Below are positions 36,837-52,251 of a stretch of 64,000 nucleotides of DNA, piece by piece; within the stretch, counting starts at the first letter, position 1; each line of letters opens with the position of its first letter. The stretch is taken from positions 744,001-808,000 of the forward strand of contig NZ_JAAQQR010000001.1 of the NCBI RefSeq assembly GCF_011742555.1, in the 5' to 3' direction. Below the pieces are notes generated by a model. The model was not told where the DNA came from and did no database searches. It saw nothing but the letters and a program-made list of their open reading frames with translations. This DNA is from Luteibacter jiangsuensis (GTDB taxonomy: Bacteria; Pseudomonadota; Gammaproteobacteria; Xanthomonadales; Rhodanobacteraceae). Position numbers and translations under genes: made by a program.

Positions 36837-37047
36837 AGAAGTGGCTCTACACCAGGGCTGCATTTTGCCACCCTCGCGATCCCGCTCATAGTACATGAAC
36901 ACGCCTTGGGGCCGCCCGTTACCTCTGCAGGCTCCGAATCGACATACCGAATCATTTGGACTTGCCGTGCAAAGGAGAACATCCTCAGCACACGGCCAAG
37001 GCGTCAAGGACGAGCCGGGCGACGTGCACTCAGACAAGGACAGTCCA

Positions 37048-38226
37048 ATGAAAAACTCCTCAACAACGGCCACCTGGGCACAGGTCCTGTTCTTCAGGGT
37101 CTTCAAGGATTTCGCGCAGGAACAGCAGCCTGCGCGCGTCAAGGTCTTCAACAACGGACGACAGCAGTGCCAGGTCAAGGTATCCATCGTGGTCCAGGAC
37201 GCGGCCGGCAATCCCGTCGACCTGCCCGAAGCCGATTTCCAGAAGCTCGAACTGATCGATTACGGCACCGGCCAGCCTCTCCCTGCAGGGTGGCAAGTCT
37301 CGCGGACGCCGGGCGAATACACGTGGGATGAAACGATCATTCCAGACACCGCCGAAGCCGCCTCGCCCGCAGCCCCGTCCAGGCAGACAGAGGACGACGC
37401 GGCTGGCCGGCTCCTCACCACGCGGGAGCAGAGGCAGTTACGCCAGGCGATTTTCTATGTCGCCACGAACTCGACAAGCCGCACGCAGATCGCGGCTCGC
37501 ATCCCGCTTCCCGGCGGCGGCGCATATGCAACGACCAACACGGTGTGGATATCCGACCCCGACGGCCTGGGCGACAAGAACGGAAATTTCAACTCTTCGG
37601 TTCTTGTCACGCCTGCCGCCTTCCCATCACTTCCCATCACCAGCTACGGCGAGTTCGATACCAACGGAAATCTCATGGCGCACCGCGTTGGGAACACTTC
37701 CAACTTCTTCCTCGCGGAAGAGCACTACGTGTTCGTCAACCTCAACGGGCGCGAGCTCGCCTTGAAGTCGGTGAGCGCGAGTAAAACAGCACCGACCGGA
37801 TTTGCCGTGTACACGCATGGCGATGACTTCGACACGTTCAAGTGGGGCATCAGCTACTACGGCCAGCCCAACGCCTCGGCTCCGGAACACCTGCCACTTC
37901 CCCCACTCAGATGGTTCCAGCTGACGGTCGCGAGCGAAGATCGGCCCGCGGAGGCCAAGGAATCCCGCCAGTCGAACTACGACCCGCTGACCATGTTCCG
38001 CAATTCCGCAGGGTCGATCGTGGGCCGTTCCACCACGCGCGTGGTCATCGGCTTGATCCTCGGCATCCTCCAGGGCCGTTTCCTCGATAGTAGCAACGGC
38101 TCGGTTCCCGATAAGAATGCGACGACGCTGCATATCCTGGACGCCTACGGCAACTATCACAGCCTGAATCTCACGTTCGGCGCCAAGGCCAATCAACTGA
38201 AGATATCCAAGGCGGCGAAAGACTAG
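37048..38226 (+). CDS. Rhs-locus protein A, unknown family (paralogue of the gene at 38855)
   Basis: A 392-residue protein with no signal peptide and no family I recognise. The N-terminal half has a beta-sandwich look: ARVKVFNNGRQQCQVKVSIV, then VDLPEADFQKLELIDY and LPAGWQVSRTPGEYTWDE. The C-terminus ends TLHILDAYGNYHSLNLTF...ANQLKIS. Both ends have counterparts in the gene at 38855 (VRVYHNGLQQARIRLRV; TDEYGTTQNRQIVF...DELKIV), so the two are paralogues with differing middles. A Gly/Ile-rich helix near residue 335 (RVVIGLILGILQG) may contact membrane. AAGGA lies seven bases before ATG 37048. Its position upstream of an Rhs shell suggests a structural or chaperone role, which is inference. Confidence 0.7.
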   Translation: MKNSSTTATWAQVLFFRVFKDFAQEQQPARVKVFNNGRQQCQVKVSIVVQDAAGNPVDLPEADFQKLELIDYGTGQPLPAGWQVSRTPGEYTWDETIIPDTAEAASPAAPSRQTEDDAAGRLLTTREQRQLRQAIFYVATNSTSRTQIAARIPLPGGGAYATTNTVWISDPDGLGDKNGNFNSSVLVTPAAFPSLPITSYGEFDTNGNLMAHRVGNTSNFFLAEEHYVFVNLNGRELALKSVSASKTAPTGFAVYTHGDDFDTFKWGISYYGQPNASAPEHLPLPPLRWFQLTVASEDRPAEAKESRQSNYDPLTMFRNSAGSIVGRSTTRVVIGLILGILQGRFLDSSNGSVPDKNATTLHILDAYGNYHSLNLTFGAKANQLKISKAAKD

Positions 38227-38301: not shown

Positions 38302-38820
38302 ATGAAAAAATTCATGACCATTGCGTGCGTACTATTGATAATGGCCGGCACGGCGGCGTGTGGCATGACCCACCCTGCCGAACGACACGAGGCCGGACAC
38401 GTCGCACAGACAACGGGCGCTGAGCCGAAACAGGGCTACTACGGCACCATACGATTCTACGAGGGCTACAACGGTAGCCAAGACACGTTCTGCCCTGAAA
38501 CCATCACCCAGCGCCCCTTTTTCAAACAGAAGAAGATGGGGGATTGCGGGAAGAACGACGAAGCAAAATCAATGAAATTCGAGGGCACTCCCGCGGGGGT
38601 TGTCGTCAAGGTGTACGACAACCCCAATTGCGACACCGGCGACGACTATGCCGTTATCACCACACTGAGGAGCGCGGTGAATAATCCCATCACCGTATGG
38701 AACTTCGAGGACAACGACTCGGACGATCCGAACGGTTACCAGATCAGGTATTACTATCAAGATGGCAACCTGGACGGTAAGGTGTCCTGCGTGCAGTTCA
38801 TTGTGCCTGAGGCACCCTAA
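38302..38820 (+). CDS. Rhs-locus lipoprotein, possibly beta/gamma-crystallin-like
   Basis: A 172-residue protein with a lipoprotein signal (CVLLIMAGTAACGM, cysteine at about 20). The mature part has four further cysteines (FCPET, GDCGKN, PNCDTG, VSCVQF), probably two disulfides. GTIRFYEGYNG, AKSMKFEGTPAGVVVKVYDNP and DDYAVITTL recall the strand pattern of beta/gamma-crystallin or I36 inhibitor folds; this is a weak pattern match. Base composition is visibly lower in GC than the surroundings, hinting at transfer. It lies between the two paralogous Rhs-locus proteins on the same strand. Confidence 0.65.
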   Translation: MKKFMTIACVLLIMAGTAACGMTHPAERHEAGHVAQTTGAEPKQGYYGTIRFYEGYNGSQDTFCPETITQRPFFKQKKMGDCGKNDEAKSMKFEGTPAGVVVKVYDNPNCDTGDDYAVITTLRSAVNNPITVWNFEDNDSDDPNGYQIRYYYQDGNLDGKVSCVQFIVPEAP

Positions 38821-38854: not shown

Positions 38855-39856
38855 ATGGAAAAGGCGTCAGGTCGACAGAGTGATACCTGGGCGATTAATG
38901 GCGTGGAAATCGTCCTTACCCAGGTGCGCGTTTACCACAATGGTCTTCAGCAGGCGCGTATCCGACTTCGCGTGCAGCCCACTCTGAATGGACAGACAGT
39001 GAAGTTGTCCGACACGGAGCGACAGAACATCGCATTGTTCGACTACGATGCCAATGATCAACGCATACCGTTCAGCGACGACGGATCCTCGAACTACAGG
39101 GGATGGTCGGCACAGCGCACCGATCGCGGATACACCTACCACCCAGGTGTCCGGCACAACGGCGTCACGCCAGCGCAAGGGCCGGGCGAGTGGCTCGATT
39201 TCTACGTGTCGGCCGACCCGAGCGCGGGCAACCGGTCCATCCGCCTGTCGTTCACCATTTACGGCGACAACGGTTCAACCTGGAGCACCACCGGATACAT
39301 GACGCCACCGGGCAGCGAAACGCCGGAATATTATGCCTACCTGGACTTGCGCGAGAACATCGAGGTGACGGCCGATCCGCCGGTCCTCTATTCCGCGGAC
39401 AATTTCCAACTCGATCGGCGAAGCATCATAGGTGTCCGAAACGACGAGGCGGCGCCGCTGTTCAACGACATCGTGGCCGTATCGATCGTCGCGGCAGGCG
39501 GCAGGCACGTGGGCATCCGGGACATGCGCTGCACACCGGCCGGCATGATCCATTGGATCAACAACCTGCCGGACACGTCCAACCCATGCTTTACCGGCTA
39601 TGCGCGCCCAGGCGAAACCACCATCTACTGGAACCCCGACGTGCCGGTGGGCAGTCAGCCTTTGCCGACCCTTTCCTCCCCTGAAACGTCACGCGGTGTC
39701 TTCGTACTGTGTGGGCGGATCGATATTCGCCGGGGCAATTACATCAATCCACCGCAGGGCCCGCTTGCCGTGATCATGACGGACGAATACGGCACGACCC
39801 AGAACCGCCAGATTGTCTTCGTTGCCGGACAGCGGGACGAGTTGAAAATCGTGTAA
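38855..39856 (+). CDS. Rhs-locus protein B, unknown family (paralogue of the gene at 37048)
   Basis: A 333-residue protein of unknown family, no signal peptide. Like protein A it starts with a beta-rich domain (LTQVRVYHNGLQQARIRLRV, then RQNIALFDYD and GWSAQRTDRGYTYHPG) and ends with ...VIMTDEYGTTQNRQIVF...DELKIV. The middle differs (DIVAVSIVAAGGRHVGIRDMRC). GGAGAA lies just before ATG 38855. It ends 26 bases before the Rhs shell gene, so the two are probably translated from one mRNA. A role in folding, coating or delivering the Rhs protein is inference from position only. Confidence 0.7.
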   Translation: MEKASGRQSDTWAINGVEIVLTQVRVYHNGLQQARIRLRVQPTLNGQTVKLSDTERQNIALFDYDANDQRIPFSDDGSSNYRGWSAQRTDRGYTYHPGVRHNGVTPAQGPGEWLDFYVSADPSAGNRSIRLSFTIYGDNGSTWSTTGYMTPPGSETPEYYAYLDLRENIEVTADPPVLYSADNFQLDRRSIIGVRNDEAAPLFNDIVAVSIVAAGGRHVGIRDMRCTPAGMIHWINNLPDTSNPCFTGYARPGETTIYWNPDVPVGSQPLPTLSSPETSRGVFVLCGRIDIRRGNYINPPQGPLAVIMTDEYGTTQNRQIVFVAGQRDELKIV

Positions 39857-39882: not shown

Positions 39883-42800
39883 ATGACAGACACGGATGTC
39901 GGATCGCCACTCGAAAGCGGAGACATGTATTCCACCGCGTTCCAGTTCTACAGCCATATCAGTGCCCGTGTCGATCCGCGAACCGGTACGTACGGAGCAA
40001 GCGTGGATCTGTCGTCGGGCGAGGGCAATCATCTTCGCGGGCCGAACCTGCCGTTCAGGCTCTCCTATAGCGCGCTGGGTGCCGGTCACAACGAAGGATT
40101 TGGCGACGGCTGGCGTCTCGCCCTGACGGAAGTCGATCTCACGACGCGCATCGTGACCCTCTCCAGCGGGGACAGTCATCGCTATGAAGGCCTGTTTCCC
40201 GAATCGTCGGCGACGTTTCCGGACCGGAAGATCGACAGCTTTTCGCTGGTAAGGCCCGGGCCCGCGAACGACGCCGTGGTGGAACATATCACGGGTGTGA
40301 TCGAGCATCTGGGCATGCTCCCGGGATCGACCCGTTATCTTCGGCCGGTTCGCGTCGTCAATCCGAGCGGGGATTCGATGCACCTGCATTGGGGCTTCGC
40401 AGCAGGGCGGTCCGTCCTGCTCAGGGTGTCCGACGACGAGGGGGAAACACTGCTGAGCCTCGACTACACGCTGACGAGTGTCGTCTTGACCCTGCATCTC
40501 GGCCATGCTGACATGGCCATGCACTTTACCCTTACTGGGTCGGAGCTGCGTCGCATCACCGTTCCGCTGATCAACCAGCTCAACGCCAGGTCGACGAACC
40601 TGCAGGACGAGGCGGTGTGGCAGTTCGACTACCATCCGCTCGCGAACGGCATGAGGCTGCTGGCCGCTGTCGTATCTCCCGACGGCATTCGCGAAGAAGC
40701 GCTCTACGATGCTTCGGCATTACGCCTTCCCGCAGGCGCCCCGATGACTTCGATGCCCGCTGTGTCGACGCATACCCGAAGGCGGGCGTCCGACCTGACG
40801 GTAATCCAGAAGATCGAATACTCCTACGACAAGTACAACCTCAATAATTTCTACGGATACCCGGTGGTGCGCAGCTGGGAGAACCGCAACGACCAATTGC
40901 TGCACCTGATCGGCCAGGACGCCTTTCGCTACGGATCGACGGAAACCCAGTACGACGGTCCGGATGTGGTGACCACCGTCGAAAGGGACTACAACCAATT
41001 TCACCTGATCGTTCGCGAAAAGACCACCCGCGGCAGCGTTGTCCAGGACGTCGTGACCGACTACGGGCAGATACCCGGCGAACCGTTCGAACGTCAGCCA
41101 AAGGCCTTCCAGCTGCCGAGAAGGATAACGACGACGACCTATCACGTGGCGTCGCCGCAGATACAGCAGGTCACCTACGTCGAGACCGAATATGACTCCC
41201 ACGGCAACATCGAGCGGCGTTACGACGGTGCCACGGACACGACAGAAATCTCCAGTTATTACCCCCCGGAAGGAGAGGTGGATGGGGATGTGGAACTCTG
41301 CCCGCCCGATCCGATCGGTCTGGTACGCCGGCTGAAAAGCCGAAAAGTGGAGCCGGGTACGCGGGGAGGTCCGGTCCGCGAAACGCGTTACCGCTATACC
41401 CGCGTTCCGGTCCGCCAGACCGCCCTGGCCTGGACGCGCAATCGCACCTATTACGTCCAGGCGAGCGAAGAGACCTCCTTCTCGGTGGAAGACGGCACCG
41501 CGCGGGAGCTCGAGCACAACGTCCAGTACTTCATCGATGACCAGGGCCCCCAGCACGGCAGTCTTCGCGGCGAGACACACGAACAGGACGGACTGGTAGA
41601 AATCCGAGATTTCACCTACGACATCGACGATGACGGGAAGACCATCACGAAACACACGAGGGAACGCACGCACGACGGGATCGAAACCCACACCAGCGAA
41701 ACGCTGTATCAACTGAGCGGACTGGTGCGTGCCGTGGAGGACGCGCACGGCAACACAACCCAGTATGAATACGACGGCATGAGCCGTCGCACGACTGAAG
41801 TCGTCGCTCCGGACGACGAGGCGTACAGAGCCGAGACCCGCTGGATCTATCAATTGTCCATGGCCGAACGCTGGGTGGAGCGCATCGGCATCACCGGCCT
41901 TCCCCACCGGGTGTGGATGGACGAGCAAGGACGCGTCATCCGTCGCGAGGAACCCCTTGAGGATGGCTCATTGTTCGTGGTCGACGAACTGGAACACGAC
42001 ATCTTTGGTCAGCTCGTTCGCGAAGTGGAAACCGACCGGCTGCGCGACCGCCTTCTTCGGCGGGAGTCGACGTTCCAATACGACGACTGGGGCCAGCGCA
42101 AGCTCGAGACGGCGCCGGACGGCAGCCAAACGGTCAGCCAGACGAGCCTGGTGGTCGACCCGGGGGATGGGAGGGTATTGACGCAAACCGTGCAATGGCA
42201 GGTCGACGGGACGGGGAAACGTACGGGCTGGCGTGCCAGCTATACCGACGCCGCGGGTCAGCAGGTCCGTACCCAGAACGGCCTGTGGTCAGGCGACGAG
42301 CGTCTGGTGCAGATGACGACGGCGTGGGAGTACGACGGCTTGGGGCGTTGCGTGACGATGACGGAAGCCTTCGAAACCACCGATCGGGTGAACGGCGACA
42401 CGCGGGCTGTCGAGAAAGAGACGCGGCAGACCTGGGACGCCTACGATCGGCTGGCGACCAGCACCTTGCCCGATGGCACGATCGTGAAGCGGACCTATGC
42501 ACCGGGCCACGACAGCGAGCTCCTGGCCAGCCTCGCCGTCGTTCCACCGGACGACGTGACGGAAATGCAACTTGGCACCCGAACCTGGGACGGACTCGAA
42601 CGGCTGTCGAGCGAACAGGCGGGCAGTCTTGTCTCGCGTCACGAGTACATGCCGGGACAGATGAGCCCCGTCCGGAAAACGATGCCCGACGGCAGTGTGG
42701 TGAGCATGAACTACGATCGCCGGCTGCGCGAGGTATTGCTGGACTCCACGCTCACGGATGCGCGCTCACATACGCAGACGGTGGTCACCGAGGCCGCTTA

Positions 42801-43905
42801 CCACAAGCGTGTCGGGCTTCCATCGCTAATTACCACGCCGAATGGGAGCATGGACGTCACGCTGGACTACCTCGGCCGCATGACCCACCAGACGATCGCC
42901 TTGCAGGGCACCGACCCGCGTCAATGCGACGTCATCGTGTCGCCAGGCGGCGTGGTGCTGGAGAGGACCGGCACAGACGGTGTCACCCGAAGCTTCGAGT
43001 ATGACGATATCGGGCGCACAACCAGCGTGACGGACCGGGACGTGACGGTCGAGCTTGACTACGACGCGTTTTCCCGCCTGGAACGGCTGAGCACGACGTC
43101 AGCCGAAGGCGGTTCGGTAACGCAGACTTTCGGGTACGACGCGCAGGGCCGTATCAGCACTCAGACCTGGGACCATGTCGACGAGACGAACACCCTGTCG
43201 CGCAGGCTCGTGTTGACCTGGCGCCCTGACGACAAGCTGTCGGGCAGACGCTGGTACGACAGCACCGACCGGCTGCTGCGCGACGAAGCCATGGATTACG
43301 ACGCACGCGGACGCCTGATCGATCACCGCATACAGGCGGACGCCGGCGAACACCCACAGGACGAGATGCTGCAACCTTATGTGCGGCAGCAGTTCGAACA
43401 CGATGCCATCGACAACCTGCGAAAGGTAACGACCACGCGCCTCGACGGACAGGTCAACGTCACCGACTATGGTTACGACACGACCGATGTCGACCGCCTG
43501 GTAAGCGTCCGGAACACCCTGCCCGGATATCCGGGCCATGACACACCTCTGGCGCTGTCCTACGACGCCAACGGCAACCTTACCGACGACGGACGAGGCC
43601 ACGCGCTTGAATGGGATGGCATGGGCCGCCTGGCGTCGGTCACCCTGCCGGACAACCGGACGATCCGTTATCTGCACGGGCCGGATTCGCGGGTGTGCCA
43701 GGTCGTGACACCGGAACGATCGACTTATCGGTACCGGGAGGACGGCGCGATTGCCTTCGAGATCGACCAGATCGAAGGGCGCCGATACATCCGGGCCGAA
43801 GGCTCCATCGTCGCGGAGACCCGCATCGCCGCCTCGGTTCGGGAGGTCCTCTTGCTTGGCACCGACCCGCAAGGCTCGGTGGTGACGGAATCCGGCGCAG
43901 GCTGA
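39883..43905 (+). CDS. Rhs/YD-repeat shell protein lacking the terminal RHS core and effector
   Basis: A 1340-residue protein made of YD repeats, for example QYEYDGMSRRTTEV, WEYDGLGRCVTM, FEYDDIGRTTSVTD, LDYDAFSRLERL, FGYDAQGRISTQ, MDYDARGRLIDH and LSYDANGNLTDDGRG. Such repeats wind into a hollow cocoon that holds a toxic C-terminus in Rhs and Tc toxins. The N-terminus (VDPRTGTYGASVDLSSG) is soluble; I see no PAAR domain, signal peptide or SpvB domain. The chain ends at LLLGTDPQGSVVTESGAG, just where a normal Rhs protein would go on to YD-x-YG and the RHS-associated core. That core begins 12 bases later in the same frame as a separate gene. Confidence 0.88.
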   Translation: MTDTDVGSPLESGDMYSTAFQFYSHISARVDPRTGTYGASVDLSSGEGNHLRGPNLPFRLSYSALGAGHNEGFGDGWRLALTEVDLTTRIVTLSSGDSHRYEGLFPESSATFPDRKIDSFSLVRPGPANDAVVEHITGVIEHLGMLPGSTRYLRPVRVVNPSGDSMHLHWGFAAGRSVLLRVSDDEGETLLSLDYTLTSVVLTLHLGHADMAMHFTLTGSELRRITVPLINQLNARSTNLQDEAVWQFDYHPLANGMRLLAAVVSPDGIREEALYDASALRLPAGAPMTSMPAVSTHTRRRASDLTVIQKIEYSYDKYNLNNFYGYPVVRSWENRNDQLLHLIGQDAFRYGSTETQYDGPDVVTTVERDYNQFHLIVREKTTRGSVVQDVVTDYGQIPGEPFERQPKAFQLPRRITTTTYHVASPQIQQVTYVETEYDSHGNIERRYDGATDTTEISSYYPPEGEVDGDVELCPPDPIGLVRRLKSRKVEPGTRGGPVRETRYRYTRVPVRQTALAWTRNRTYYVQASEETSFSVEDGTARELEHNVQYFIDDQGPQHGSLRGETHEQDGLVEIRDFTYDIDDDGKTITKHTRERTHDGIETHTSETLYQLSGLVRAVEDAHGNTTQYEYDGMSRRTTEVVAPDDEAYRAETRWIYQLSMAERWVERIGITGLPHRVWMDEQGRVIRREEPLEDGSLFVVDELEHDIFGQLVREVETDRLRDRLLRRESTFQYDDWGQRKLETAPDGSQTVSQTSLVVDPGDGRVLTQTVQWQVDGTGKRTGWRASYTDAAGQQVRTQNGLWSGDERLVQMTTAWEYDGLGRCVTMTEAFETTDRVNGDTRAVEKETRQTWDAYDRLATSTLPDGTIVKRTYAPGHDSELLASLAVVPPDDVTEMQLGTRTWDGLERLSSEQAGSLVSRHEYMPGQMSPVRKTMPDGSVVSMNYDRRLREVLLDSTLTDARSHTQTVVTEAAYHKRVGLPSLITTPNGSMDVTLDYLGRMTHQTIALQGTDPRQCDVIVSPGGVVLERTGTDGVTRSFEYDDIGRTTSVTDRDVTVELDYDAFSRLERLSTTSAEGGSVTQTFGYDAQGRISTQTWDHVDETNTLSRRLVLTWRPDDKLSGRRWYDSTDRLLRDEAMDYDARGRLIDHRIQADAGEHPQDEMLQPYVRQQFEHDAIDNLRKVTTTRLDGQVNVTDYGYDTTDVDRLVSVRNTLPGYPGHDTPLALSYDANGNLTDDGRGHALEWDGMGRLASVTLPDNRTIRYLHGPDSRVCQVVTPERSTYRYREDGAIAFEIDQIEGRRYIRAEGSIVAETRIAASVREVLLLGTDPQGSVVTESGAG

Positions 43906-43917
43906 GGGGACGCCATC

Positions 43918-45051
43918 ATGCTGTCTCGCGTTTACGATGCTTACGGGCAAAGCAGCGCGCCCGCCCGTGCCCGCACCTCCTACACCGGGGAACTCGCGGA
44001 GTCCGGCAGCGGGTGGTACCTGCTGGGTACGCGCCCCTACAACCCCACGCTGCGCCGCTTCCTCGCACCGGATGCGGCAAGCCCTTTCGGCGAAGGTGGC
44101 ATCAATCGTTATGCCTATTGCGGCGGCGACCCCGTCACCCGCATCGATCCTGACGGTGACTCGTGGATGGATTGGGCCCTTACCGCCATAACGATTGGCG
44201 CCTCGGCGGTGACCACCGTCATCACTGCCGGTGCGGCGGCGGCGACGCTCATGCCCGCGGCCATGGCTGCCACCACAGCGCTCAGTGCGGGATCGGGGGC
44301 CGCCGCCGCCGCGTCGTCCTCACTCGCCGTCGCCCTTGCGACCCCTGGCATCGCCGTTGCGACGTCGGTCGCCTCCGCCAATGCTGTCAGCCTGGTAAGC
44401 CAGGTGGGTTCGGTCGCCGCGAGTGCAGCGGGCAACCGTGCGGCCACCGAAGTTCTGGGCATGCTCGACTTTGCCGTCAGCCTGGGCATGAGCGTCGCCG
44501 TGGCAGGCATGTCCTTGAAGCCAATGCCAAGAGTTGCCGGGGTATCCGCCCCGCGGCGGGCGTCTGCCGCCACGCCGACCGAATCCTTCAGGACGAGCTC
44601 TCGCCCGGCCGGAAACAACGCGATCGCGGCTGACGGAAGCCGCCTCTCCACGGGACATACCGAGGTGGTCATGAATTCCGCGAACCTCAGCCAGGCGGAC
44701 CTTGGGGGATTGGCGGGCGACGCAAGACAAGACGGAGCCGCAGCGTTGGCTGTTTACGTCGGAAGCCCGGTTCCCCGATCAGGCCCCCGGACATTGCGGG
44801 CAGACGACAGGACCCGCCGTGCACCACGCACGTACAGGGCAGCCGAAGCCGCTCGACTGGGACAGTCCGCAGGGCTGGACGTGACGGTGAACGATGCGAC
44901 CCAAACCTCTTCGGACAAGCTAAGGCGGGAACTCTCGTGGAAAGACGCTTACGTCGTCCCACTCGTGAGCACGCTGGATGCCTCTACCGTCACCGGTCTC
45001 GGCATCGAAGTGACCTCTTCACGGCACGTGTCCGTCAGGGCGGGCATTTGA
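43918..45051 (+). CDS. Stand-alone Rhs core plus effector, tip 1
   Basis: A 377-residue protein. Residues 1-80 are the RHS repeat-associated core: VYDAYGQ, SGWYLLGTRPYNPTLRRFL, GGINRYAYCGGDP and the IDPDG cleavage-type motif. After this, residues 85-210 are Ala/Val/Gly-rich and hydrophobic (VTTVITAGAAAATLMPAAMA, SLAVALATPGIAVATSVASA), then comes a polar C-terminal domain of about 150 residues (TEVVMNSANLSQADLGG, SWKDAYVVPLVSTLD) that I do not recognise. It starts 12 bases past the shell gene, in frame with it, at an ATG with GAGGGGA upstream. The effector end differs from those at 50035 and 51145. Confidence 0.8.
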   Translation: MLSRVYDAYGQSSAPARARTSYTGELAESGSGWYLLGTRPYNPTLRRFLAPDAASPFGEGGINRYAYCGGDPVTRIDPDGDSWMDWALTAITIGASAVTTVITAGAAAATLMPAAMAATTALSAGSGAAAAASSSLAVALATPGIAVATSVASANAVSLVSQVGSVAASAAGNRAATEVLGMLDFAVSLGMSVAVAGMSLKPMPRVAGVSAPRRASAATPTESFRTSSRPAGNNAIAADGSRLSTGHTEVVMNSANLSQADLGGLAGDARQDGAAALAVYVGSPVPRSGPRTLRADDRTRRAPRTYRAAEAARLGQSAGLDVTVNDATQTSSDKLRRELSWKDAYVVPLVSTLDASTVTGLGIEVTSSRHVSVRAGI

Positions 45052-45073
45052 AACGGATGATCCGCCAGGCCTG

Positions 45074-45334
45074 TCAGCGCACCGCGGAAAGCCTCCGCAT
45101 CGGCACGGCCTGGACGGACACCGGCCGTTTGGCATCACTGCCGAACGGCCGCCATATGCCGTCGGCTCCTTCCACCCCGATGGTGGCCCCTGCCCCGTCG
45201 GCCGCGGCCAGATTGACCGCGGCGCGCAAAGCCTCGAAGCGGGAGGGGAAGCGCCCCACGGGCACGCCGGCCAGGCGAACCGTCCAGGACGAGCCGTCAT
45301 CGGGCTGGTAGGGAATCTCATAGACGCGCGTCAT
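45074..45334 (-). CDS. Small conserved-looking protein, unknown function
   Basis: An 86-residue protein: MTRVYEIPYQPDDGSSW, then RFPSRFEALRAAVNLAAAD, DGIWRPFGSDAKRP. The pattern of a short strand, a helix with EALRAA and a final strand resembles DUF2188-type small proteins, a weak match. The ATG has GGAGCG upstream. It converges on the Rhs tip 1 gene and stops 23 bases away. An immunity role is possible only by position; its opposite orientation argues against it. Confidence 0.6.
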   Translation of the reverse strand: MTRVYEIPYQPDDGSSWTVRLAGVPVGRFPSRFEALRAAVNLAAADGAGATIGVEGADGIWRPFGSDAKRPVSVQAVPMRRLSAVR

Positions 45335-45541
45335 GAATGGCGCTCCGCTCAGCTCAACAAGTTCAACTGAAGCATGGACTTGCTGGCGTCATTACAAGGT
45401 GCTCGCAACGCGCTCCGACGACGACACCGCCGCGACATCCGTCCCGCAGCGCACAACGGGCCGTGAAGGCGGTGTTTGCTAGAATTGGCGCTTTATCCGC
45501 GCCGGCCGACATCCCGCCGGCCTGTCGTCCAAGGAGCTTCC

Positions 45542-47077
45542 ATGTCCGCCAAGATCCTCGCCGCACTCGGTCTCACCAGCAACGAGTCGGGTACCTACCT
45601 CGGCGGTGGCCAGTGGGCCGCCACCAGCGACGCAGGCAGCCTCAAGCCCGTCAACCCGGCCACCGGCGAGGTGATCGCGACGGTGCAGGCGTCCAGCCCG
45701 GCAGACTATGAAACGATCGTTCAGCGTGCGCAGGAAGCGTTCGCGGTCTGGCGCACCGTGCCGGCTCCGCGCCGCGGCGAGGCCGTTCGCCTTTGCGGCG
45801 AGGCCCTGCGCAAGCACAAGGATGCCCTCGGTTCGCTGGTCGCCCTGGAAATGGGCAAGATCAAGCCCGAAGGGGATGGCGAAGTGCAGGAGATGATCGA
45901 CATCGCCGACTTCGCTGTGGGCCAGAGCCGCATGCTCTACGGCAACACCATGCACTCCGAGCGCCCGGGCCACCGCATGTACGAGCAGTGGCACCCGGTC
46001 GGTCTCGTGGGCATCGTCAGCGCCTTCAACTTCCCCGTGGCGGTGTGGGCCTGGAATGCGTTCCTGGCCGCCATCTGCGGTGACATCTGCATCTGGAAGC
46101 CGTCGCCGAAGACGCCGCTCTCCGCCATCGCCACGATGAAGATCTGCAACGAGGCCCTGAAGGAAGGCGGCTTCCCGGACATCTTCTTCCTGTTCAACGA
46201 TGCCGGCAGCGATCTCGCGCAGGCATTCGTCGACGACAAGCGCGTTCCGCTCATCAGCTTCACCGGCTCGACGAAGGTCGGCCGCATGGTCGGCGAGCGC
46301 GTGGCGAAGCGCATGGGCCGCAGCCTGCTCGAACTGGGCGGCAACAACGCCATCATTCTCGATAAGTCGGCCGACCTGAAGCTCGCCATTCCCGCGATCG
46401 TGTTCGGCGCCGTCGGCACCGCCGGCCAGCGTTGCACCACCACGCGCCGCCTGTTCGTGCATTCGTCCATCCACGACACCGTGGTGGATACGCTGGTGAA
46501 GGCCTACGGTCAGGTGGAACAGAAGATCGGCGACCCTACCCTGCCGACCACGCTCATGGGCCCTCTGAACAGCCCCGAGGGCGTGCAGGCATTCCTCGCG
46601 GCCGTCGAGAAAGCCAAGGCGGCGGGCGGTACGGTGCGTACCGGCGGCAAGGCGCTCACCGACCGCAAGGGCAATTTCGTGCTTCCCACGATCGTCACGG
46701 GCCTCGATAACGCAGACGAGGTGGTGCAGACGGAAACCTTCGCGCCGATCCTCTACGTGATGCCGTTCGACACCCTCGACGAGGCCATCGCACAGCAGAA
46801 CGCCGTGCCGCAGGGCCTTTCCTCGGCCATCTTCACGCAGGACCTGAAGGCCGCCGAGCAGTACCTGTCGGCGGCGGGTTCCGATTGCGGCATCGCCAAC
46901 GTGAACATCGGCACGTCCGGCGCCGAGATCGGCGGCGCGTTCGGCGGCGAGAAGGAAACCGGCGGCGGTCGCGAGTCCGGCTCCGACGCGTGGAAGGTCT
47001 ACATGCGCCGCCAGACCAACACCATCAACTACTCCGACGCGCTGCCGCTGGCCCAGGGCATCAAGTTCGAGTTCTGA
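45542..47077 (+). CDS. Aldehyde dehydrogenase family 7 (alpha-aminoadipic semialdehyde dehydrogenase-like)
   Basis: A 511-residue enzyme of the ALDH7/AmaB type, which oxidises alpha-aminoadipic semialdehyde (in equilibrium with piperideine-6-carboxylate) to alpha-aminoadipate in lysine breakdown. [33 protein letters not shown] (general base) and [14 protein letters not shown] (nucleophile) are characteristic, as is [32 protein letters not shown] at the end, which is shown here only to about 20 residues at a time: [15 protein letters not shown], then [22 protein letters not shown] ribosome binding site precedes the ATG. Glutaryl-CoA dehydrogenase at 60118 would act later in the same pathway. 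Confidence 0.9.
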
Positions 47078-47090
47078 CAAAGGCCGCACC

Positions 47091-47858
47091 ATGAACGACC
47101 TGCGCTCCACGGAACGTTTCTCCGATCGCGTCGAGGACTATGTCCGCTACCGCCCGGATTACCCGCGAGCGCTGGTCGACTGGCTGCACGGACTCGGCGT
47201 AAGGCCCGACTGGCTCGTCGCCGATATCGGGGCGGGTACCGGCATCTCCAGCAAGCTGTTCCTTGATGCCGGCCACCGGGTCACCGCTGTCGAGCCCAAT
47301 GCGGCGATGCGCGCGGCGGCAGAGCGCTGGCTGGCGGACGAGCATCGCTTCAGCGCAAAGGAAGGCAGCGCCGAGGCCACCGGCCTTCCTGGCCAGGCAG
47401 TCGATCTCGTCGTGGTGGCGCAGGCCTTTCACTGGTTCGACAAAGACAAGGTGCGTGCGGAATTCGCGCGCATCCTGTCGGCGCGTGGGCTCGTCACCGT
47501 GTTCTGGAACTCGCGCCGGCTGACCGGCACGCCGTTCCTCGAAGGCTACGAACGCCTTTTGCTCGAATACGGCCTCGATTACCGCGGCGTGGCCGAGCGT
47601 TATATCGATGACGCGTCCATGGCCCGATGGTTCGGCCAGGGCTACCGCGGCATGGCCAGCTTCCCGCACGGCCAGAAACTCGACTACGAAAGTCTGCTCG
47701 GGCGCCTGATGTCCTCGTCGTATGCACCCAAGCAGGGACACGCCAACCACGAACCGATGCTCCATGCCCTGCGTGCGCTCTTCGACGACACGCAAGAAGG
47801 GGGCATGGTCTCTTTCGACTACGACACCCGTGTGTTCGCGGGTCGTCCGGACGCCTGA
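47091..47858 (+). CDS. Class I SAM-dependent methyltransferase
   Basis: A 255-residue methyltransferase with motif [17 protein letters not shown] (about residues 43-58), the acidic [10 protein letters not shown], and motif region [20 protein letters not shown]. The AFHWFD and FWNSRR segments are typical of the Methyltransf_11/25 enzymes of unknown substrate. It is 13 bases after the dehydrogenase and overlaps pyrD by one base, so the three are probably cotranscribed. Confidence 0.85.
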
Positions 47859-48886
47859 TGTACGACCTGATCCGCCCCCTGCTCTTCGTACTCGACCCCG
47901 AGACCGCGCACGGGCTCACCCTCTATGCGTCCGACGTGGCGCAGCGCAGTGGCCTGTCTCACCTGATCGCGAAGCCGCCGGCGGACTTGCCGACGACTGT
48001 CTTCGGTATCGAATTCCCCAACCCCGTCGGCCTTGCGGCAGGCCTCGACAAGAATGGCGAACACCTTGACGGCCTCGCCGCCCTCGGATTCGGCTTCGTG
48101 GAGATCGGCACCGTCACGCCGCGCCCCCAGGCGGGCAATGAAAAACCGCGCATGTTCCGCCTGCCCGCGCATGAGGCGGTGATCAACCGCCTCGGCTTCA
48201 ACAACGGCGGCATCGACGCGCTGGTGCGCAACGTGGAGAAAGCGACATTCCGCGGCGTGCTGGGCATCAACATCGGCAAAAACAAGGACACGCCGAACGA
48301 GCGTGCCATCGACGATTATCTGCTGTGCCTCGAGCGCGCCTATCCGCTCGCCAGCTACATCACGGTGAACATCTCTTCGCCCAACACGCAAGGCCTGCGC
48401 GATTTGCAGGAAGAGGAAACGCTACGGCGCTTCATCGGCGAATTGCGCGAGGCGCAGGAGCGCCACGCGGGCAGGCATGGCAAGCGCAAGCCGATGCTGC
48501 TGAAGATCGCTCCCGACCTTACGGACGCCGAATTGGACGCCATCGCGGAAGTGCTGCTCGCTTCCGGCATCGACGGTGTCATCTGCACGAACACCACCAT
48601 CGATCGCACGGCCGTCGCGGGAGACCCGAATGCTCACCAGGCCGGCGGGCTCTCCGGCCGGCCGCTCTTCGCGAAGTCCACCGCGGTGCTGCGCGGTATG
48701 CGCGCGCGCCTTGCCGGCAGGCTGCCGATCATTGGGGTGGGCGGCATCCTCGACGGCGATTCGGCGGCCGAAAAGATGGAAGCCGGCGCCGCGCTGGTGC
48801 AGGTCTATTCGGGCCTCATATACCGCGGCCCGAAGCTTATCGCCGAGGCGGTCGCTGAAATCCGGCGGCGCGGAATCCTGGCATGA
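47858..48886 (+). CDS. pyrD: Dihydroorotate dehydrogenase (quinone), class 2
   Basis: A 342-residue membrane-associated enzyme that oxidises dihydroorotate to orotate with quinone in pyrimidine synthesis. The N-terminal helices ([19 protein letters not shown]) that make the quinone tunnel mark it as class 2. FMN and catalytic motifs include [22 protein letters not shown], the catalytic serine in [14 protein letters not shown] and [20 protein letters not shown]. It starts within the preceding stop (TGATG) and overlaps murB by four bases. Confidence 0.96.
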
Positions 48887-49923
48887 ACAATACCCCTGTG
48901 GACATGGGCGGGTTTACGCTCGCCAGCGACGCCCCGCTCGGCGCCCGGAACACGTTGCGCGTGGACGCGCGCGCGAAGCTGCTCGCCGAGGTGCGCGACC
49001 CCACGAAGATCCCCGAACTGCTGGCCTATCCAGCCGTAAAGGCCGGCAAGGTGCTGGTGCTCGGCGAAGGCAGCAACATGCTCATCAAGGGCGACTTCGA
49101 CGGCACGGTGCTCGCCATGGCAACGCGCGGCGTCGAAACCTTCCAACGCGACGATCGCGTGCTGATCCGCGTGGCCGCGGGTGAACGCTGGGACGACTTC
49201 GTGCGCTGGTCGCTGGGCCAGGGTTTCGCCGGCCTCGAAAACCTCATCCTCATTCCCGGCACCGTCGGCGCCTCTCCCATTCAGAACATCGGCGCGTACG
49301 GCGTCGAGGTAGCGGAGTTCATCGACACGGTCGAAGCCTGGGACACCCACAAGGGCGAATTCGTCGTGCTTGACAAGGCTGAGTGCGCGTTCTCCTACCG
49401 AGACTCCACGTTCAAGCAGCAGGCTGGCCGCTGGATCGTGGTGGCCGTCACCTTCGCCCTCCCCCGTGAGCGGCCGCTGTCGCTGGACTACGCGGGCATC
49501 CGGGAGGAAGTGGAAAAAATGGGCGTAGCCCGGGCTACGCCCTATCACGTGGCGGAAGCCGTGGTGCGCCTGCGCTCTCGTAAGCTTCCCGATCCGGCCG
49601 TCATCGGCAACGCGGGCAGCTTCTTCAAGAACCCCATCGTGCCGGCCGCGCAGGCCGACGCGCTCGCTCTCGCCCACCCCGGTCTTCCCGTGTGGGCCCA
49701 CGCGGGAGGCACGGCGAAGATCTCCGCCGGTTGGCTTATCGAGGCGGCCGGGTTCAAGGGCGAGCGCGACGGCGATGCCGGCATGTCGAACCGCCATGCC
49801 CTCGTGCTGGTGAATCACGGCAAGGCCACGGGTCCGCAACTCTGGGCCTTCGCGCAGAGGGTGATCGCGGGGGTGCAGGCGAAGTTTGGCGTGGCGCTCG
49901 AGCCGGAGCCGCTGATCGTCTGA
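48883..49923 (+). CDS. murB: UDP-N-acetylenolpyruvoylglucosamine reductase
   Basis: A 346-residue FAD enzyme that makes UDP-MurNAc for peptidoglycan. The FAD-binding [36 protein letters not shown], the [10 protein letters not shown] segment and the catalytic serine in [13 protein letters not shown] identify a type I enzyme. A 22-base perfect palindrome (49521-49542) lies inside the coding region, encoding MGVARATPY in frame; it resembles dispersed GTAGCCCGGGCTAC repeats of this group of bacteria. The start overlaps the pyrD stop (ATGA). Confidence 0.95.
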
Positions 49924-50034
49924 ACGTAGCAGGCAAAAGAACCTGGATCCGCCCCGTCCGAATTCGCGTCGTTTTCGCGATGGACCGCCACCGAGTTGAA
50001 TACTAGGCTCCGGGTGAACCCAGGGAGGGGCGCC

Positions 50035-51117
50035 ATGGTGGTCGACGAACAGGTTTACAGTGCCTATGGGGATCGAGCCAAGGGAACGGTGGGGGCTCGC
50101 AGCGCCTATGCGGGGCAGATACTCGAAGAAGGCGCGTATGGCTACATGCTGGGCGAGCGTCCCTACGCTCCGACGCTGCGCCGTTTCCTCAAGCCCGATG
50201 CTCTCAGCCCGTTCGCGTCCGGAGGCATCAACCGATATGCCTACTGCAAGGGCGATCCGACAAACCACATCGACCCCTCGGGAACGATCCGGCGGCGCTG
50301 GTCGCCTGTCGGCAAGGCGCCCTACCCTGTCGGCATGAGCACGCGGCGCGGTGCCGGCGACACGCCGGGCTTGTCCCTTACCCCTGGCATGAGCATGGCG
50401 GCCGCAGCGGCCGCTGTGGACGTGGCGACGATATCGGCCGGCATTCCTCAAGGGTCGCTGGCCGCCGCCCGGCCTCCAGGCAACATGGTCCAGGGACAAC
50501 TGGCAGCCCAGGCGACCGTCGCGCCGATCGCCCCCGGAAGACCGGCATCCGGAACACGAACGAAACGCGGCGCCGGACGCACTGTGACGGTCCTGCACGA
50601 GGAAGATTTTCCCCAGGACAGGCAGACGCTCGATCGATTGGGCAGGTCGGCACTCAAGCCGAAGTGGTTCGAACACTTGCACCTCTTCAACGAAGAAAGC
50701 ACGATCTGGGCAGCCGACACCGTCATCTCCGCAGACCATTTCCCTCCCTTGTTCCAGACGCTTCAAGCGCGGGGAATCACCCATCTATCGCTCTATTCAG
50801 GCGCTCATGGGAACGCCACCGGAAAGAACTGGGCCAGCGATTCCGCATTCAAGACAGATCTACTTCAATTCGACTTCTTATCCGCCGATCTGTTCGATAC
50901 GACGTCTCAGGCTCGTGCAGCCGGCATCGATGTGTACGTAGCGGACATGAAAAACCTGAGCAGGCAAGCCATGCAGGAAATGTTGGCGGAAGACGGCGTA
51001 CACGTGATCGGTTACTGCTTCGGCATAGCGGACAGGGAAGTCATGAGGGCCATCGGTCTCACGAACGTCACCGTGTTCGAGCCCTGGATAGCGGAACCCA
51101 GGCAACCGTTACCGTGA
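50035..51117 (+). CDS. Orphan Rhs core plus effector, tip 2 (clan CD-like His/Cys effector)
   Basis: A 360-residue protein built like tip 1. Residues 1-83 are the RHS core (VYSAYGD, YGYMLGERPYAPTLRRFL, GGINRYAYCKGDP, IDPSG) starting just before the V-Y-x-A-Y-G motif. A Pro/Ala-rich linker runs to about residue 185. The effector domain (WFEHLHLFNEESTIWAAD, THLSLYSGAHGN, IDVYVADMKN, VHVIGYCFGIADREVM) shares its order of motifs with tip 3. His258 and Cys328, each after a hydrophobic strand, fit the pattern of clan CD cysteine peptidases. GGGAGGGG precedes ATG 50035. No shell gene is adjacent; murB lies upstream. Confidence 0.78.
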   Translation: MVVDEQVYSAYGDRAKGTVGARSAYAGQILEEGAYGYMLGERPYAPTLRRFLKPDALSPFASGGINRYAYCKGDPTNHIDPSGTIRRRWSPVGKAPYPVGMSTRRGAGDTPGLSLTPGMSMAAAAAAVDVATISAGIPQGSLAAARPPGNMVQGQLAAQATVAPIAPGRPASGTRTKRGAGRTVTVLHEEDFPQDRQTLDRLGRSALKPKWFEHLHLFNEESTIWAADTVISADHFPPLFQTLQARGITHLSLYSGAHGNATGKNWASDSAFKTDLLQFDFLSADLFDTTSQARAAGIDVYVADMKNLSRQAMQEMLAEDGVHVIGYCFGIADREVMRAIGLTNVTVFEPWIAEPRQPLP

Positions 51118-51144
51118 CCTCGACCGGCAAGGGAGCTCAAAGTC

Positions 51145-52251
51145 ATGGAGCAGACCGTTTATGGTGCCTACGGGCGTAACGTCCCGAAAGACATCGACAA
51201 GCGCACGGCTTTCGCGGGAGAAGTGCGGGAAGCCGGCACTGGCTGGTACATGCTGGGTCGGCGCATCTACGACCCGGCAATGCGTCGTTTCCTGAATCCT
51301 GACGAGGCCGCTCCGTTCGATGCCGGCGGCATCAATCGCTATGCCTATTGCAGCGGCGATCCGATCGGCCGGACCGATCCCGGCGGCAACATATCGTTTC
51401 CCTGGCTCGTCTCGATGCTGGACAGGATCGACCTTCCCATCACTACGGCGCGCAACCGTTCCGGCGACCATAGCGTCTTCGTTACACCGACACTGCGGGC
51501 AACGGCCGTGTCCCGACCTGAATCCGCTGGCCTGCGGAGCGCCATAAAACGAAAGGCTCCGAACGATGAACTCATGGGGGAGCTTCGGGCGTACGCCAAC
51601 GCAAGGGTGCCGGTCAGCGGACCGGGCAGTCAGCAGACCGTTCTTTTTACGCTCACGCCAACGACACCGGCCATCCAATGGCCGCGGATAGGCGACACCG
51701 CCTCAGGCACCGTGATCACATCAGACCGGCGAACGATCCAGGTTATTTCCGGGCCACTTGCATTCAGCGATGACCCAAAGCGGGCAAGGCACGCCGCGAG
51801 GGGTGTGACCTATCCTCACTGGATGGAACGAACCAACGTCAGCGGAGGCATCCATTTCGCGGCGACCACGTCCGTCAATATGAGCTACATGCACTCGTTG
51901 AAGAACTATATCGACGCCGTGTATCCCGGCCGCCCAGTCACCCTGTTTGCCGGCGCTCACGGGGCCCAGGCCGGGCCCTTCTGGGACGACGAGGGGAACC
52001 GCATGCACCTGGAACAGAAATTCTTCGATGCGGTGGAAAAGAAGGTGAGGAAGCTTCAATGGCCGGTGACGCTGGTGAATTACGCCGACGTCAATTCCCA
52101 TCACGTCCGCAATCGCATGGAGTACGGCAAAGGAGTCGATATTCAGTTTACGTGCTTCGGCGCCACGGATTCGATGTTCATGCAAACCTTCAATATCTAC
52201 GACATCACTTCGCGTGCTCTGAATCCGGTCCCCAGGGATCCCGCCCATTGA
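51145..52251 (+). CDS. Orphan Rhs core plus effector, tip 3 (clan CD-like His/Cys effector)
   Basis: A 368-residue protein. Residues 1-81 are the RHS core (VYGAYGRN, GWYMLGRRIYDPAMRRFL, GGINRYAYCSGDP, TDPGG). A variable linker follows to about residue 215. The C-terminal domain (YPHWMERTNVSGGIHFAA, PVTLFAGAHGAQAGPFW, VTLVNYADVNSHHV, VDIQFTCFGATDSMFM) aligns in order with that of tip 2, with His272 and Cys337 as the likely dyad. It starts 27 bases after tip 2 with AGGGAGC upstream, so the two are probably one transcript. No gene that could be an immunity protein separates it from ppk1. Confidence 0.78.
   Translation: MEQTVYGAYGRNVPKDIDKRTAFAGEVREAGTGWYMLGRRIYDPAMRRFLNPDEAAPFDAGGINRYAYCSGDPIGRTDPGGNISFPWLVSMLDRIDLPITTARNRSGDHSVFVTPTLRATAVSRPESAGLRSAIKRKAPNDELMGELRAYANARVPVSGPGSQQTVLFTLTPTTPAIQWPRIGDTASGTVITSDRRTIQVISGPLAFSDDPKRARHAARGVTYPHWMERTNVSGGIHFAATTSVNMSYMHSLKNYIDAVYPGRPVTLFAGAHGAQAGPFWDDEGNRMHLEQKFFDAVEKKVRKLQWPVTLVNYADVNSHHVRNRMEYGKGVDIQFTCFGATDSMFMQTFNIYDITSRALNPVPRDPAH

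Follow-up and report, generated by a model that had tools for sequence, protein, structure and literature searches.

A putative split Rhs toxin in Luteibacter: one open-ended shell and several separately encoded core-plus-effector tips

The 64,000-nucleotide stretch of Luteibacter jiangsuensis DNA analysed here (the window; contig NZ_JAAQQR010000001.1, from a genome of 4.33 Mb in 20 contigs, labelled G000) contains a gene for an Rhs shell protein that ends ahead of the RHS-associated core, and three separate genes, termed tips, each of which carries this core and continues into its own effector region. The genes probably make up a split Rhs toxin: a single open-ended shell would be closed in trans by any of several tips, each encoded on its own and combining plug, protease and effector. 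The strongest evidence for this reading, and the main argument for assembly in trans, is the complementarity of the ends: across eight Luteibacter genomes, three shell break points occur, one per genome, and the measured detached units start at the break of their own genome. The shell, the tips and the elements at the tip starts are as follows.

39883..43905, + strand: shell gene, 1340 amino acids, RHS/YD repeats without a core domain; the C-terminus ends ..GTDPQGSVVTESGAG, followed by the stop
43918..45051, + strand: tip 1, core, Ala-rich hydrophobic stretch and degenerate effector without the Tox-HDC His and Cys
50035..51117, + strand: tip 2, core and Tox-HDC effector
51145..52251, + strand: tip 3, core and Tox-HDC-like effector
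43933..44157, + strand: RHS-associated core of tip 1 (TIGR03696, residues 6-80, E 3.1e-19)
50056..50283, + strand: RHS-associated core of tip 2 (TIGR03696, residues 8-83, E 1.3e-16)
51160..51387, + strand: RHS-associated core of tip 3 (TIGR03696, residues 6-81, E 1.7e-19)
43904..43907, + strand: Shine-Dalgarno (SD) match GAGG of tip 1, 10 nucleotides upstream, overlapping the shell stop
50024..50028, + strand: SD match GGAGG of tip 2, 6 nucleotides upstream
51129..51132, + strand: SD match AAGG of tip 3, 12 nucleotides upstream

The shell matches PF05593 (E 1.6e-18) and YD_repeat (TIGR01643), which identifies it as an Rhs repeat shell. RHS_repeat is the sole Pfam match at E 0.1 or better in the profile search, which detects no core domain, no N-terminal PAAR and neither of the TcB-type domains SpvB and TcdB_toxin_mid; a search of solved structures with the shell as sole query returned nothing at E 0.01. 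The core missing from the shell is present in the tips. As the original prediction held, the three genes start just ahead of V-Y-x-A-Y-G and carry the full core: the model TIGR03696 (Rhs_assc_core) is covered at positions 1-75 of 76 in all three, far beyond chance, and the N-termini (tip 1, MLSR-VYDAYG; tip 2, MVVDEQ-VYSAYG; tip 3, MEQT-VYGAYG) start 4, 6 and 4 residues ahead of the V. No shell-like sequence is read ahead of the tip cores, a position at which fused genes mostly have ..DPQGS.., or something close to it, leading up to Y-x-A-Y-G. The shell stop lies 12 nucleotides ahead of tip 1, in the identical frame and with four codons from stop to start, and the distance from the shell stop is 6.1 kb for tip 2 and 7.2 kb for tip 3, both of which lie between murB and ppk. 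A profile search of the same genome finds a further tip (tip 4) on contig 15; of the six core matches over the cut-off, four are tips 1-4 and the remaining two are further Rhs genes, whose open frames are 1520 and 925 amino acids long; a seventh match falls below the cut-off.

To compare break points, shells and detached units were placed on a profile of 1411 positions built from five naturally fused Luteibacter proteins, with the following results.

G000 (window genome): shell end 1329; four tips, starting at 1331, 1333, 1333 and 1334
G008: shell end 1328; seven tips at 1327-1334
G021: shell end 1327; five tips at 1330-1334
G006: shell end 1328; one tip at 1331 (one measured of at least four)
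G001: shell end 1344; three tips at 1342-1349
G013: shell end 1345; three tips at 1351-1352
G011: shell end 950; three cassettes at 946-953 behind the shell, and a murB-ppk unit at 951
G012: shell end 947; units at 948-954, and a murB-ppk unit at 952

The units of G012 include a remnant and a gene that is in two parts (952-1201 and 1214-1411), and a further G011 cassette at the edge of its locus begins at shell residue 966 by BLAST. The remote units of G008, G011 and G012 lie between murB and ppk, the same place as tips 2 and 3. It is hard to see why a remote gene should start at the end of its own genome's shell unless the two products fit together, and the complementary ends therefore argue for assembly in trans.

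The shell family was searched for in 101 genomes and matched at E 1e-20 in 11, all of the same genus (among them L. jiangsuensis CC60, G021, and Luteibacter sp. UNCMF331Sha3.1, G011). Shell loci occur in three states: a fused shell-core-effector gene (G004, G005, G018); a shell followed by tips (the late-split shells of G000, G006, G008 and G021, with a slightly later cut in G001 and G013); and a shell cut at about residue 960 and followed by larger cassettes (G011, G012), each of which brings about 375 last shell residues, the core and an effector (loci L075:9477-17917, L076:6286-8730, L077:8868-15616 and L078:1856-4177). The four late-split shells stop 8-11 residues past an invariant DPQGS, and those of G006, G008 and G021 are 49-61% identical to the window shell. 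No shell of the family at E 1e-20 in the split-shell genomes (G006 being an incomplete draft) has an effector fused in its own frame. Arrays of tips accompany single shells of this family, with seven tips at two sites in G008, five in G021 and at least four in the G006 draft (80% complete). In the shell tree, three late-split shells group at 99/98, and they are joined at 96/98 by the G006 shell and by four fused shells, those of G004 and G018. The tree does not show the four late-split shells to be one clade, and the number of split or fusion events beyond the three break points is therefore uncertain.

The tips of the four late-split genomes form a set of 17 proteins (four from G000, seven from G008, five from G021 and one from G006) of 345-391 amino acids. 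An SD match of at least 4 nucleotides at the proper distance precedes 14 of the 17 tip starts; of 233 ATGs internal to the tips, 49 have such a match (Fisher p 4.5e-7). The expectation that each window tip has its own ribosome-binding site was borne out by the GAGG, GGAGG and AAGG matches listed above. Together with the co-varying ends in eight genomes and the tip arrays, these sites lend good support to the proposal that one shell serves several separately encoded effectors.

The core is better conserved than the effector (mean identity 0.56 versus 0.27 over 136 tip pairs), and the original description of interchangeable core-plus-effector cassettes needs qualifying in that the effectors, though diversified, belong largely to one family, Tox-HDC (matches at E 0.01 or better in 11 of the 17 tips), and are not unrelated cassettes. 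The suggestion that the GGINRYAYC coding patch is conserved in DNA and fit for recombination is rejected: identity of codons for the same residue is 0.546 in the patch versus 0.467 in the remaining core, a rank of 12th among 74 windows, which is no clear excess of synonymous conservation.

In the Rhs effector RhsA of Pseudomonas protegens, the conserved region at the C-terminus winds into the shell in a spiral, closes it off and cuts the cargo by means of Asp1324 and Asp1346, and killing requires this cleavage (PMC8765631). The aspartates aligned with D1324 and D1346 of RhsA (structure 7q97) are invariant in 17 of 17 tips, and DPxG is present in the core; each tip may therefore comprise a plug, a protease and a cargo. 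The large protein would be an Rhs shell open at its C-terminal end, and each tip gene would supply the missing end, that is, the last strand or strands and the RHS-associated core, followed by its own effector. In a docked tip, the effector would lie inside the shell, would be cut near the DPxG site and would be released in the target cell. The shells of one cell would thus be loaded with a mixture of effectors, each particle with its own. Binding in trans, encapsulation, self-cleavage and toxicity are all steps that we infer from the sequences.

Co-occurrence of tips and shells was assessed by a census of core hits over the cut-off with an open frame of up to 600 amino acids in 22 relatives of the same genus. 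A complete core without shell-like sequence ahead of it is found in 4 of 4 Luteibacter genomes with a late-split shell and in 0 of 19 other genomes examined. These counts are our reading of the rows, checked by eye against the hit lists, and are given no probability because relatedness is uncorrected; one partial hit over the cut-off, G018:C1:2013405, was left out (33 model positions, with a filter of 40), and L188, L250, L252:4717 and L258, which start inside the core or have shell sequence in a neighbouring frame only, were counted as fragments by judgement. The tips of G001 and G013 begin at core positions 9-18, and since similar fragments that begin inside the core exist elsewhere in Luteibacter, including genomes without a matching shell (e.g., L216, L248, L252, L266), the case for these two genomes rests on the place of their tips behind the shell. 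Other fragments keep upstream shell homology (L199, L200, L214, L232). The scan of 20 regions around core hits in other genera and families showed tips of the secreted type, or fragments that have homology upstream, and no tip of the kind seen in the window; the long frame at L293 yielded no row, and L280 and L282:568 are short remnants in which little sequence precedes the core. As originally claimed, the tips do not look like the usual displaced 3' fragments, given their complete core, their SD sites, the lack of upstream shell sequence and the counterpart of tip 3 at the corresponding site of another species (see below); the claim needs qualifying in one part, as displaced rhs fragments of Salmonella can also have start signals (PMC7043789).

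The effector of tip 2 contains a Tox-HDC domain.

50701..51075, + strand: Tox-HDC domain of tip 2 (PF15656, residues 223-347)

This match (E 3.5e-12, 47.1 bits) is well over the curated cut-off of 21, that of tip 3 is below it (E 0.0025, 18.5 bits), and tip 1 has no PF15656 match in the Pfam search. The conserved H, D/N and C of Tox-HDC are present in tips 2 and 3, and tip 1 is without the His and Cys. In the alignment, both residues are kept in 12 of the 13 tips outside the first slot behind the shell, the exception being tip 4 of the window genome, and the first-slot tips that lack them have hydrophobic stretches (43918-45051 in the window; L069:12788-13963; L071:10879-12054; L083:296-1435). 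The first slot may therefore have another role. Tox-HDC is predicted to be a caspase-like thiol peptidase or transglutaminase that usually occurs without immunity genes and acts on distant targets, e.g., eukaryotes (PMC3482391), a prediction to which a structural search added nothing. The 27 nucleotides between tips 2 and 3 are too short for any gene, and two tip pairs of G008 overlap by 4 nucleotides. No obvious immunity gene accompanies each tip, among open reading frames (ORFs) of at least 80 amino acids and with upB, a companion gene described below, not excluded. This and the Tox-HDC assignment make a eukaryotic target more likely than a bacterial one.

At its murB-ppk site, G008 has a counterpart of tip 3 (L070:5308-6414) that is 64% identical, with nonsynonymous divergence (dN) of 0.26 and synonymous divergence (dS) of 1.49 (0.26 and 1.77 in the effector part); with dS near saturation the ratio is rough, and purifying selection on tip 3 is a safe conclusion as to direction only.

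Several observations weigh against a shell completed in trans, beginning with this near-saturated comparison. TcA is absent from the genome by a PF18276 search, the shell has neither PAAR nor a Tc domain, and no delivery module was found. Orphan-type fragments that start inside the core without in-frame shell-like sequence occur in the genus (L216, L248, L252-L254, L257, L259, L266). The His and Cys of Tox-HDC are missing from the first-slot tips in 4 of 4 genomes and from tip 4, so that not every tip looks like an obviously active enzyme. The SD match is of only 3 nucleotides at 3 of the 17 tip starts (tip 4 of the window genome and two G021 tips). Finally, the core of tip 2 modelled alone has a predicted local distance difference test (pLDDT) score of about 31-43, which fits dependence on the shell and equally a shallow alignment.

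The alternative that survives best, itself unlikely, is that tips 2 and 3 form a silent reserve of orphan rhs C-termini, which matter only once recombination has placed them behind a shell, and that tip 1 alone serves the shell. Stand-alone and orphan cassettes are usual in polymorphic toxins (PMC3482391, PMC11067744), and other Luteibacter genomes hold both kinds of fragment described above, those with upstream homology and those beginning inside the core. Tips 2 and 3 differ from such material in having a complete core, their own SD site and start, and no shell-like upstream sequence; tip 3 seems to be conserved as a protein; and the murB-ppk site holds units with the matching break point even in genomes split elsewhere (G011, G012). 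Moreover, tip 1 is itself separate and has no Tox-HDC His and Cys, and the shell would then be left without an intact Tox-HDC enzyme.

It is improbable that the tips act or are exported without the shell, e.g., via a type VI secretion system (T6SS) of the same genome, with the core as a vestige. The genome does have a T6SS gene, some 720 kb away from the shell, and a second class of tips in the genus, described below, has its own signal-peptide-like leader. This reading sits poorly with the restriction of bare tips with a complete core to genomes that have the matching core-less shell (4 of 4 versus 0 of 19), and with the core being the best conserved part of the tips and keeping both catalytic aspartates.

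It is scarcely credible that a recent nonsense change in this strain produced the shell and tip 1 from what was a normal full-length Rhs gene, the single frame and the four codons from stop to start notwithstanding, since cross-species comparison already contradicts it: the same shell stop recurs at the identities given above in G006, G008 and G021, and the first tip is out of frame with the shell in G008 and in G021, where the tip ATG overlaps the shell stop. For the same reason the tips are not remnants of a recently lost full-length gene, which had been named as a refuting outcome; the shell stop with separate tips recurs in three further species. Equally far-fetched is the view that the tips are intracellular toxin-antitoxin modules comparable to Salmonella rhs genes, whose main and orphan C-termini are expressed and form toxin-antitoxin pairs with immunity genes (PMC7043789), because no antitoxin gene is evident per tip given the short or overlapping junctions between tips, although upB was not tested as one.

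For a shell completed by separately encoded tips, the closest precedent of one shell with several partners is the Tc toxin of Yersinia entomophaga, in which YenB combines with YenC1-3 from distinct loci, each with an RHS core, self-cleavage and different cargo; one TcC partner is encoded at a distant locus, like the remote window tips (PMC11067744). The Yen TcCs have about 680 N-terminal residues in common ahead of the toxin (PMC11067744), and 97.2% of TcCs are 851-1050 amino acids long (PMC7861908), whereas the window tips detach only the core of about 80 residues and the effector; the G011 and G012 cassettes are intermediate in this respect. Tc systems have Tc domains and TcA, and membership of the window system among them is ruled out by the lack of TcA in the genome and of Tc domains in the shell. 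The Luteibacter split shell has up to seven cartridges, compared with three TcCs for YenB. Relative to the Tc precedent, then, the cut has moved to the plug.

The tips resemble the T6SS effector RhsA in having the C-terminal aspartyl-protease seal with its catalytic Asp pair (7q97, PMC8765631). RhsA is a single polypeptide with an N-terminal PAAR and plug, whereas the shell and plug-cargo of the window are encoded by separate genes and no PAAR was found. Shell, core and toxin are in one polypeptide in Rhs polymorphic toxins; here they are in separate ORFs, an arrangement conserved in relatives. The tips are also like orphan rhs C-terminal cassettes, which consist of the core end and toxin without a shell gene ahead and occur several per genome. 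Luteibacter orphans have shell sequence before the core or start inside it, whereas in the window tips the core is complete and starts at the break. They differ from other Tox-HDC effectors in that several paralogous cargoes are arrayed for one shell, and neighbouring stand-alone cassettes are rare among effectors without immunity genes (PMC3482391). No description of stand-alone core-plus-effector tips was found in the literature searched, the coverage of which is partial and leaves subscription journals and preprints outside.

The gene order in the window is upA, upB, upC, shell, tip 1, a small reverse ORF, aldehyde dehydrogenase, methyltransferase, pyrD, murB, tip 2, tip 3 and ppk, with the names of metabolic genes, including murB and ppk, being our assignment from sequence. 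Three companion genes precede the shell.

37048..38226, + strand: upA; the ATG start is our choice (the listed ORF begins at 36895)
38302..38820, + strand: upB, 172 amino acids; leader lipoprotein-like by eye
38855..39856, + strand: upC, directly ahead of the shell; the start is our choice (the listed ORF begins at 38762)

upA matches no Pfam family and is found by BLAST upstream of the shell in relatives (L069, L071, L072, L073, L075, L079, L081, L082, L083). upB could encode an accessory or immunity protein; in G008, the murB-ppk site has two upB relatives placed between its tips (L070:6477-8398). The upC product is predicted to be all-beta (AlphaFold pLDDT 80.6), and its matches are weak, at most Ig-like or adhesin-like. 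Matches to upA and upC share one ORF in G008, G001 and G013. Proteins like upA and upC with a D-x-Y-G motif near the C-terminus also seem, by eye, to recur ahead of related shells in a cyanobacterium and in Pseudomonas (loci compared, L094:6788-9851 and L091:4078-6650). The small reverse-strand ORF (45074-45334), ahead of the aldehyde dehydrogenase gene, is 59-73% identical in G008, G011, G012 and G021, and because of this conservation it is assigned to the neighbourhood and not to tip 1.

A second class of split Rhs genes occurs in the genus, with 22 pairs in which an RHS-repeat frame of 900-1900 amino acids, often ending ..RACNxxGCS.., is followed by a core-plus-effector frame of 307-467 amino acids (loci L088, L177, L178, L180, L182-L184, L191, L192, L194, L196, L202, L204, L205, L212, L213, L215, L220, L223, L229-L231). 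By a simple hydropathy threshold applied to the open frames, the tip leader is hydrophobic and signal-peptide-like in 22 of 22 pairs and the shell N-terminus in 12 of 22, and both partners may be exported ahead of assembly. Similar tips occur in other genera, and one effector of this class is Tox-REase-7.

On balance, we favour the description of the window system as a cartridge-loaded Rhs toxin, with a cargo-free shell and trans-loading plug-protease-effector genes, in which the three cuts (at about 950, 1328 and 1345) suggest that separation of shell and cargo has been repeatedly favoured, giving a mixed payload without DNA rearrangement. Rhs cargo is thought to vary by recombination behind the shell; were the tips to load in trans, a cell could have several effectors at once from one capsule. 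The structural question would then be how a near-complete Rhs shell takes up a plug and unfolded cargo during or after synthesis. As the tips are small and clearly delimited, with as many as seven in one genome, shell-cargo specificity and self-cleavage would be amenable to direct testing.

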